Source of the DNA: Lepisosteus oculatus
Taxonomy: Eukaryota; Chordata; Actinopteri; Semionotiformes; Lepisosteidae
NCBI RefSeq assembly: GCF_040954835.1
Contig: NC_090703.1
Coordinates: forward strand, 6,877,001 to 6,941,000
Reading direction: 5' to 3'
DNA: 64,000 bases
Below the pieces are notes generated by a model. It was not told the origin of the DNA. It was given only the letters and a program-made list of their open reading frames with translations, and ran no database searches. The translations under genes and the position numbers were made by a program. Positions 49,882 to 52,800 of this stretch are shown piece after piece; position 1 is the first letter of the stretch, and the number at the start of each line of letters is the position of its first letter.

Positions 49882-52800
49882 GTCAGGCAGGGGGCAACCG
49901 GGAGGCTCGGGGGGGGGGTAAAATTACAAAGATCGCTGCTTTGTGGGCAACAGTGTGTAACAGTGTGTTATCCTAAGAGACTTTGAAGACATGTAAAGAG
50001 AACTTGGCTGGAAACAGCCCGATTCCTCACCTAGCTAGGGAATGAAGAACGTTTTCAGTGTCCACAGTTCCCAGTGTGGACGTTTGAAGCCTCCCCCTCT
50101 CTTCCCCCCTCTTTGCCTTGGCCCCCCCCTAGGTGATGATGGCGCTGTCCAGCCACCTGAGCGCGGTGGAGTCGGAGAAGCAGAAGCTGCGGGCCCAGGT
50201 GCGCCGGCTGTGCCAGGAGAACCAGTGGCTGCGGGACGAGCTGGCGGGCACCCAGCAGAAGCTGCAGCGCAGCGAGCAGAGCGTGGCCCAGCTAGAGGAG
50301 GAGAAGAAGCACCTGGAGTTCATGAACCAGCTGAAGAAGTACGACGAGGACGTCTCCCCTTCGGTGAGTCCTGGCAGGACTATCCTCAGGAGGGTTTTGG
50401 TGTTTCAGTGCGGTTTGCAAAACAATACTGCTGACTTAATCGCGGCTGATTTGCAGAGCTGCTTGTTTTGAGCAGCGAGAGAATTCAGGAGGTGGGGGGG
50501 TGGGTTGTTTGGAAGCACTTTGCAGGGGCATCTTGTCTCGTTCAATGATGAGAGAGGTCATGCTGACCCGCCCGGTAACATTTTTGTTGTTGTTGCTGTG
50601 CAGCACTTGAGATTTTGGCCAGTCATTGCCCAGTTGAGAGATTTTGGCCAAGTTGCTGTTCTTGCAGACATTTTGCTGACTTGGGGGTATACGTGACATT
50701 TTGCATCGGGGTGTTGAATAATGCATGTGTCTGGCAGGGTAGAGTAAAGATGAGGGCCGCATTTTGATTGTGTGGCTTCCTGCTCTCCCTGACTCTGCAC
50801 TCTTGTCGCGCAGGAAGAGAAGGACTCGGACTCCACCAAAGAGCCGCTGGACGACCTGTTCCCCAATGACGAGGATGATCAGGGACCAGGAAGTAAATGT
50901 CCTTTCCGACGTTTTTAACCGATACGCCGTCTGTTGTGCTGTGCTGTGAGAGCAGGATTTGTTCTCCTAGGATTTAGGCTGGGGGAATTATCCAGAAGGG
51001 ATAGTGGAACAGAGACCCCTGCTCACGTGGGAACTGGGAACTCTGGAGGGAGAGACCAACCGACTGGCTAAGCAGGGGACTCCAACCCTGATCCTGAACA
51101 ACCCAGATCCTCCAGGCTGTAGTCCTCTCTTAGGTTTTCAAGAACAGAACCCCCACAGATGGCAAGATCCTCCTGTGATTGGTGTAGTTAAGTAATTAAA
51201 ATCTGGTTTGGAATACAAAAAACGTTCCTCATGGCTGTCTAAAGCCAGAGTTTAAGATCCAGTGTGAGTGTCCTTCACTCACATCTGTGAAAGGGTTGGT
51301 TTCCAATGCTCAGTGTGGGGGAAGAAGAAACCACTCTGCACATGTTAGAGGGTTAGAAAAGCACTGATGAGCAGCCTCAGGTTTGAGACCATACAGCTCG
51401 TGACGGATTTTTTGAAGTGGTGCCTCAGAAGTAGAAACGTACTTGTGAATTTTTTACGAATCATCACATTTTGTAGGCCAGGGAGGCAGTAAGTGGCCGG
51501 GAAAACACTGGCTGAGATGAGCCACGTCTTTCTGGTTTTACAGCTTAAATACATGTTTCCATGGTGGTTAATGTTTTTGTGTCGAGTTTCGCAAAATTCC
51601 TCATGGGAGGACCCGCACCGAGGTGAACATCCTGATCTACCTTTGAATTGACCCACGGCTACTTAGCCTGGAGCTCGATCACAATGTACACTTATGCACA
51701 GGTTTGATTATAAGTGCTCTGGTGCTCCTTTAGTTCAGATATTCATGTATCCCCTGTGGAATGCTTGATAATTACCTGGCACTGGTCTTCAGATCAAAGT
51801 GATCAGCATTGCCGGCGGGAATCTCTCAGCTGCAGCAGGACCGCTCCATTTCCCCACCACATGAAAAGAGTATTGATCAAGAGTAGAACTGAGTGAGTGC
51901 ACCGCTGGGTTTGCTTCCTGTGGAAGGAATCACACAAAGCCTTGTGCTGTGTCCTCTGTCCTGCGGGGGGCGCTGTTACCCCTGCAGAACATTTAATCTC
52001 TCCATGACTCTTCATCCCAGACCAGTCTGTTCGCTCCAGAACGCCAGGTCTCGACAAAGTAGGTTTTGCAGAGTCAAGTACTGAGGTGTATTGTAGGATC
52101 AGTCGTGCACCACCGAACCGTGAGAACTTCCTTTCTGTTTGCTTTTCAAGCTGCAGCAGTCAGATCACTTCTCACCTTTTCCTCCCATCAGGGCCTCATT
52201 TGGATTCCATTCCAGTTTGTCTTGGCCTTGCTTCTTTCAGGAAATAGTCCAGAAATAGCAATTATGTGTTTACATGCGGTAGAGTCTCTGGCGGGGGGGA
52301 GAGGAATCGCAAGCCCGGGTCTTTCTCTGCGTGCCTGACTGAGTGCCCGTCTGCGTGCTCTCTTGTGCCCGGTTGTTGAGTTGTCTGTGTGTTTGTGTCT
52401 GCAGCCCAGCAGCACAACAGCAGCGCGGCAGCAGCAGCCCAGCAGGGGGGCTACGAGATCCCGGCGCGCCTGCGCACCCTCCACAACCTGGTGATCCAGT
52501 ACGCCTCCCAGGGCCGCTACGAGGTGGCCGTGCCGCTGTGCAAGCAGGCGCTGGAGGACCTGGAGAAGACCTCCGGCCACGACCACCCCGACGTGGCCAC
52601 CATGCTCAACATCCTGGCCCTGGTGTACAGGTGAGAGCCCCCCGCCCCACAGCTCAACATCCTGGCCCTGGTGTACAGGTGAGAGTCCCCCGCCCCACGG
52701 CTCAACACCCTGGCCCTGGTGTACAGGTGAGAGTCCCCCGCCCCACGGCTCAACACCCTGGCCCTGGTGTAGAGGTGAGGGTTCAGTGTTCTGTGCACCT

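Follow-up and report, generated by a model that had tools for sequence, protein, structure and literature searches.

A minisatellite of splice donors at the end of exon E5 in klc1 and klc2 of Lepisosteus oculatus, probably shared through gene conversion between paralogues

The window analyzed here is a stretch of 64 kb (C8:6877001–6941000) from a 1.2-Gb assembly of 813 contigs. An earlier reading of the same DNA, made without database searches (below, the sequence-only reading), had named the gene in its last part klc1. Both the protein and the gene neighborhood agree with this name. The protein encoded by exons E5–E9 matched a KLC1 chain best in the PDB (508 bits; the best KLC2 chain scored 460). 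ORFs with a BAG domain and a GCD14 ORF are located in the window, and a creatine kinase gene is found at C8:6848716–6850260. The BAG-domain gene (bag5-like; 27529–29416, minus strand; Pfam BAG in both ORFs tested) was used as a synteny marker for klc1. In total, ten neighboring ORFs picked from a longer list were tried against Pfam, and five of them gave no domain.

A search of the genome with the klc1 protein revealed 21 matches, 19 of them on contigs C8, C18, C3 and C17 and two weaker ones on C6. The klc gene of C3 has a creatine kinase gene at a distance of ~28 kb, and that of C18 has Pacs-1 and MYST-type ORFs within about 7–13 kb; on C17 the only creatine-kinase match lies about 2.6 Mb from the klc gene. 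Relying on the human gene order, we take the genes of C8, C3 and C18 to be klc1, klc3 and klc2, respectively, i.e., presumed 2R ohnologues, while the gene of C17 is presumably klc4 judging by sequence signatures. It should be noted that klc2 was named by synteny because its matches to solved structures were indecisive (protein without E4 and E5: a longer KLC1 chain, 550 bits; 3nf1, KLC1 TPR, 360; 5fjy, KLC2, 349). In klc2, exons E6 and E7 are fused (L005:5601–5789, C18), and the intron present in klc1, klc3 and klc4 is precisely absent there. The same gene contains a 54-bp minisatellite (16.5 copies, 97%; L005:6959–7850, C18) that starts a few bases past the E9 donor. An open frame of 935 aa was observed ~10 kb beside klc3 (L021:3107–5911, minus strand, C3).

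Exon E5 of klc1 (coding exon 4; 52405–52630, plus strand, 226 nt) belongs to the TPR region and is considered below as a putative gene-conversion tract. Its end is overlapped by a tandem array that TRF placed at 52604–52779 (period 48, 3.7 copies, 96% matches, 0% indels, score 317), one of seven TRF rows in the window. Thus, the 48-bp array described in the sequence-only reading is real, its start there (52605) being a trivial offset. The array consists of three full units (52604–52651, 52652–52699 and 52700–52747, all on the plus strand) and a partial fourth one (52748–52780), and each unit comprises the last 26 nt of E5 followed by a 5' splice site. Units 1–3 carry CAG/GTGAGA and then a C-rich spacer, and differ among themselves by 1–3 bases of 48; three copies of the 9-mer CAGGTGAGA are found on the plus strand of the window (52628, 52676 and 52724). 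The donor of unit 1, at 52630/52631, is that of the full-length protein, and units 2 and 3 have decoy donors at 52678/52679 and 52726/52727. In unit 4, the repeat is limited to the first 32 nt and lacks the spacer (its last donor base brings the feature to 33 positions); it has the decoy GAG/GTGAGG at 52774/52775, and its Tyr codon is changed to TAG. These donors, as well as the unit ends (CCCCACAG in unit 1, CCCCACGG in units 2 and 3), are as had been claimed. The intron that bears the array ends at E6 (53472–53559, plus strand), an exon without a conversion signal. Elsewhere in the window, a 33-bp minisatellite at 14681–15054 (11.5 copies, 91%) is open in several frames on both strands.

When 241 bases around the klc1 array were compared with the genome, all four klc loci matched. 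At the end of the exon, klc3 and klc4 matched over 76 and 84 bases, respectively, and the array is absent from both loci. The match in klc2 (C18) had 96% identity over 217 bases and ran through an array located at the same exon end, E5, with CAG/GTGAGA in units 1–3 and CAG/GTCGGA in the last unit. Minisatellites are head-to-tail repeats of about 10–100 bp, and both arrays are of this kind (48 bp × 3.7 in klc1 and 48 bp × 3.6 in klc2). The donor-plus-spacer pattern CAGGTGAGAGYCCCCCGCCCCACRG, with up to two mismatches, gave at least six matches in the 1.2 Gb, three in each array, and the reversed pattern gave none in the same search; only the best candidates are scored in such a search, and the repeat counts are lower bounds. 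In klc3, a second CAGGTGAGG is found ~33 nt after the E5 donor (L006, minus strand), probably by chance.

Comparison of the two arrays revealed that: (i) their first units are identical over all 48 nt; (ii) a decoy-only variant, ATC>ACC, is common to klc1 units 3–4 and klc2 units 2–4 and is absent from unit 1 of both arrays and from klc1 unit 2; while (iii) the 150-nt flanks of the two genes are unlike, with best ungapped scores of 7 upstream and 8 downstream (shuffle means 6.6 and 6.9, maxima 10 and 11). The start of the klc3 intron scored 9 against klc1 (shuffle mean 6.6, maximum 10), which was not taken as similarity. Taken together, the identical first unit, the shared variant and the unlike flanks indicate that the arrays most likely share one origin as DNA. 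Besides, some spacer variants are common to klc1 units 2–3 and absent in klc2, and GTGTGC is common to klc2 units 2–4 and absent in klc1; therefore, one has to suppose that the arrays changed locally afterwards or that exchange occurred more than once. The sequence-only reading had suggested that the array expanded across the splice site of klc1. An array is indeed there, but a simple local expansion does not account for its homolog on another contig.

We next compared seven exons of the four paralogues in 42 pair-by-exon tests, shuffling codons among like amino acids within each exon. In E5, an excess of silent identity was found in three pairs (p ≤ 1e-4 in each), namely klc2–klc3 (99.1% of nucleotides, 38 of 38 four-fold sites), klc1–klc2 (97.3%, 35 of 38) and klc1–klc3 (96.3%, 34 of 37). 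Altogether, 10 of the 42 tests gave p < 0.05 and five survived correction: these three, E3 in klc1–klc4 and, barely, E3 in klc2–klc4. The E5 exon of klc4 shares 62–63% of four-fold sites with the other three genes (p 0.07–0.10), and it is 88.7% identical to that of klc1. In E6, E7 and E9, where the klc genes are about 75–90% alike, none of the 18 tests revealed an excess (lowest p 0.057). Convergence of codon usage in GC3-rich exons was ruled out for E5 by the within-exon shuffles.

Other tests pointed in the same direction. Among 100 silent variable columns (E2 was left out because it is diverged), the longest silent run covered 22 columns in klc2–klc3 (p = 0.0003) and 12 columns both in klc1–klc2 (p = 0.006) and in klc1–klc3 (p = 0.008); in the three klc4 pairs p was 0.53–0.81. 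Fisher tests that set E5 against E6+E7+E9 (a post hoc choice of exons) gave p = 1.3e-4 for klc1–klc2, 1.4e-4 for klc2–klc3 and 0.003 for klc1–klc3. The creatine-kinase genes located near klc1 and klc3 served as a control pair, and all eight BLAST blocks had 74–84% identity, without a near-identical patch. Thus E5 displays, in three pairs, a local excess of silent identity beyond codon usage, while its surroundings (E6, E7 and E9, and the 150-nt flanks of klc1 and klc2) are not homogenized, as is typical of a conversion tract.

These data are probably best explained by an origin of the array in klc2 and its arrival in klc1 through ectopic gene conversion of E5 between presumed 2R ohnologues. 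A tandem duplication in klc2 would have given rise to the array, which would have been copied into klc1 by interlocus conversion of E5 between contigs. The conversion would have entered by way of the exon, continued along the array and terminated by re-annealing to the 26-nt repeat of the exon end, so that downstream of the last unit the recipient retained its own intron; such re-annealing would explain why the last units enter different introns. Both arrays would later have diverged and been homogenized locally. A cDNA-mediated transfer is thought less likely, since the array holds intron sequence and E6 bears no sign of transfer.

The proposed direction relies on base composition and repeat content. 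GC3 of klc2 is 0.97–1.00 in all seven exons cut, while that of klc1 is 0.96 in E5 and 0.66, 0.71 and 0.75 in E6, E7 and E9. In klc1 it is also high in E2, E3 and E8 (0.91, 0.97 and 0.93), and therefore GC3 alone does not prove the direction. Tandem repeats detected by TRF cover 49% of the 10-kb klc2 locus, 2.5% of the klc1 locus (10.8 kb), 0.3% of klc4 and 0% of klc3. The four 10-kb stretches neighboring klc2 contain 20–46% of tandem repeat, and the region around the gene, GC-rich and dense in minisatellites, is located 0.94 Mb from the end of the contig. The best fit to these data would be a minisatellite that originated in klc2 and left it together with E5. The opposite course, in which the array was born in klc1 and copied into klc2, seems unlikely: the klc1 units do change gradually from the first to the fourth, with the coding ATC and TAC kept in unit 2, but both GC3 and the density of tandem repeats point to klc2 as the source.

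What the decoys would do was examined by splicing in silico. Each of the three gave a product ending in ...NILALVYR*, with the stop directly after Arg266 (TGA at 52632–52634, plus strand; the exon phase at the decoys reads AGG TGA), just as the sequence-only reading had predicted. Decoys 2 and 3 are identical to the first donor at all nine positions, so that the nine donor bases would be the same in units 1–3 of the RNA; splicing at unit 1 would lead to normal KLC1 and splicing at a decoy to a stop after residue 266, a likely target of NMD. Among the nine klc1 donors scored, this one has the best predicted U1 duplex (-11.1 kcal/mol, against -9.8 for the next); the duplex of the last unit reaches -10.2 in klc1, which is weaker, and -6.9 in klc2, which is poor. 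An RNA fold hiding the decoys was considered and rejected, the predicted fold being ordinary (z +0.66; an equal or better fold in 147 of 200 shuffles). The suggestion that unit 2 could be spliced as a pseudo-exon did not hold because of size: the intron between the first donor and the AG at 52652 would measure 22 nt, and the exon of 26 nt would also be very small. Vertebrate introns under about 60–70 nt are rare.

Since units 1–3 are near-identical, position, timing or the upstream exon must largely decide which donor is chosen. In a published case where two donors compete, SRSF1 shifts the choice toward the intron-proximal one, and the effect was weakened when the upstream donor was given the stronger sequence (PMC5585400). 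With donors as alike as those of klc1, this makes both the use of unit 1 and a leak to the decoys plausible. Such a leak would lower the KLC1 output through NMD. Poison splicing from the klc1 decoys is possible.

Could the array be a functional switch of unproductive splicing, selected in both genes? Every klc1 decoy leads to the same stop, the donors of units 2 and 3 match that of unit 1 in sequence and duplex energy, and the array is present in two genes. On the other hand, the donor of the last unit is weakened in klc1 and poor in klc2, drift is seen in the exon-like parts (I>T, Y>C, Y>stop), the RNA fold is ordinary, and gene conversion alone explains the sharing. We consider such a switch very unlikely and, given the drift of the exon-like parts and the poor last donor of klc2, read the array as mostly a tolerated burden, not a regulator. 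A broader proposal, in which klc genes, though apart since the 2R duplications, continue to trade long exons between chromosomes with the GC-saturated klc2 as the exporter and the decoy cassette is an unproductive-splicing control common to klc1 and klc2 and set by array length, appears decidedly doubtful, if somewhat less so.

It is slightly less probable still that the silent sites of E5 were kept by selection since 2R, e.g., as splicing enhancers, and never converted. The E5 protein is 90–97% identical in all six pairs, which would suit such selection, but E5 of klc4 has no significant silent-site excess in its three pairs, and selection on the exon leaves the shared intronic spacer unexplained. 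Highly improbable is convergence, in which an already similar exon end was duplicated twice independently and no array was transferred. E5 is alike in both genes anyway, and duplications carrying AGGT are a known process (PMC3443670); against this stand the same 48-bp period in klc1 and klc2, the same intronic spacer, found nowhere else in the genome among the best candidates scored, and the shared decoy-only ATC>ACC. An assembly artefact is hardly credible, because the two arrays lie on two large contigs and differ in unit variants, last units and flanks.

Intron gain by tandem genomic duplication of AGGT segments (PMC3443670, where Hellsten et al. 2011 is cited) resembles our case in having AG/GT in each unit; the klc copies, in contrast, lie at an existing donor, their 48-nt unit is short for an intron, and there is no coding gain. 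The dual-specific splice-site array of human UBC (PMC10809524) also has head-to-tail AGGT sites that are potential 5' or 3' splice sites, but its units are 228 nt long and coding, whereas those of klc are 48 nt long, mostly intronic and contain an in-frame stop. In DOK7 intron 4 (PMC5585400), nearby 5' splice sites likewise compete and one leads to a truncated product; there are two unequal donors 11 nt apart, compared with four in klc1, three of them identical in nine bases.

Interlocus gene conversion, reviewed in PMC3966225, likewise leaves a sharp-ended patch of near-identity in otherwise diverged paralogues. The klc genes differ from that picture in several respects: they are on three contigs (54, 24 and 75 Mb); they are now about 75–90% alike in E6, E7 and E9, present-day values rather than those before the event, while efficient human conversion is estimated there to need about 92% identity or more; the tract of a few hundred nt is near or under the MEPS figures given (>200 bp in mouse, 337–456 bp in human); and it brings a tandem array into an intron. 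Each of the three elements, gene conversion, minisatellites and duplicated AGGT sites, is already known (PMC3966225, PMC3443670, PMC10809524). A literature search for KLC gene conversion gave a sole match, on butterfly oogenesis. Among the matches listed (titles and abstract starts), none dealt with a converted splice-donor minisatellite or with conversion of 2R ohnologues across chromosomes carrying one.

The 2R duplications date back about half a billion years. If the conversion from klc2 is true, paralogues of this age would still swap exon-sized DNA between chromosomes, and such exchange could bring non-coding repeats with splice sites into the intron of another gene, a route by which a minisatellite may jump into a clean gene. 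Dating and trees of conserved paralogues would then be biased, and the klc1 array would offer a natural test of spliceosome choice among near-identical donors.

Signals of exchange were also seen outside E5. Exon E3 of klc1 (50133–50363, plus strand) matched the genome with 95% identity on C17, 91% on C18 and 83% on C3, and is a candidate exchange tract with klc4: in klc1–klc4 it has 95.2% identity and 25 of 30 four-fold sites in common (p = 0.0003, surviving correction). The two E3 copies, that of klc4 being at C17:6156101–6156331, are 95% identical, and E2 and E6–E9 of the pair 75–88%; perhaps this was a separate exchange. For E3 in klc2–klc4, p was 0.0011; the values for klc1–klc2 (0.0014) and klc2–klc3 (0.012) did not survive correction. 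Exon E8 of klc1 (55493–55666, plus strand) is a weak second candidate tract with klc2 (94.8% of nucleotides, 20 of 22 four-fold sites; uncorrected p about 0.015–0.017, failing correction for the 42 tests). In this pair, 11 of 14 silent variable columns agree in E8, compared with 19 of 58 in E6+E7+E9 (p = 0.0025), and E8 in klc1–klc3 (p = 0.016) fails correction as well. GC3-rich exons limit the silent-site information, and E8 therefore stays weak; after correction, convergence of codon usage is a possible explanation for E8 and for E3 in klc1–klc2 and klc2–klc3. The exons with a signal (E3, E5 and E8) are 174–231 nt long, and E6, E7 and E9 88–102 nt, which would fit a length need for conversion. 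Exon E2 has 261 coding nt in klc1 and a protein 48–70% alike, and shows no strong signal (klc1–klc3, p = 0.008, failing correction); thus, length is not the sole condition for exchange.
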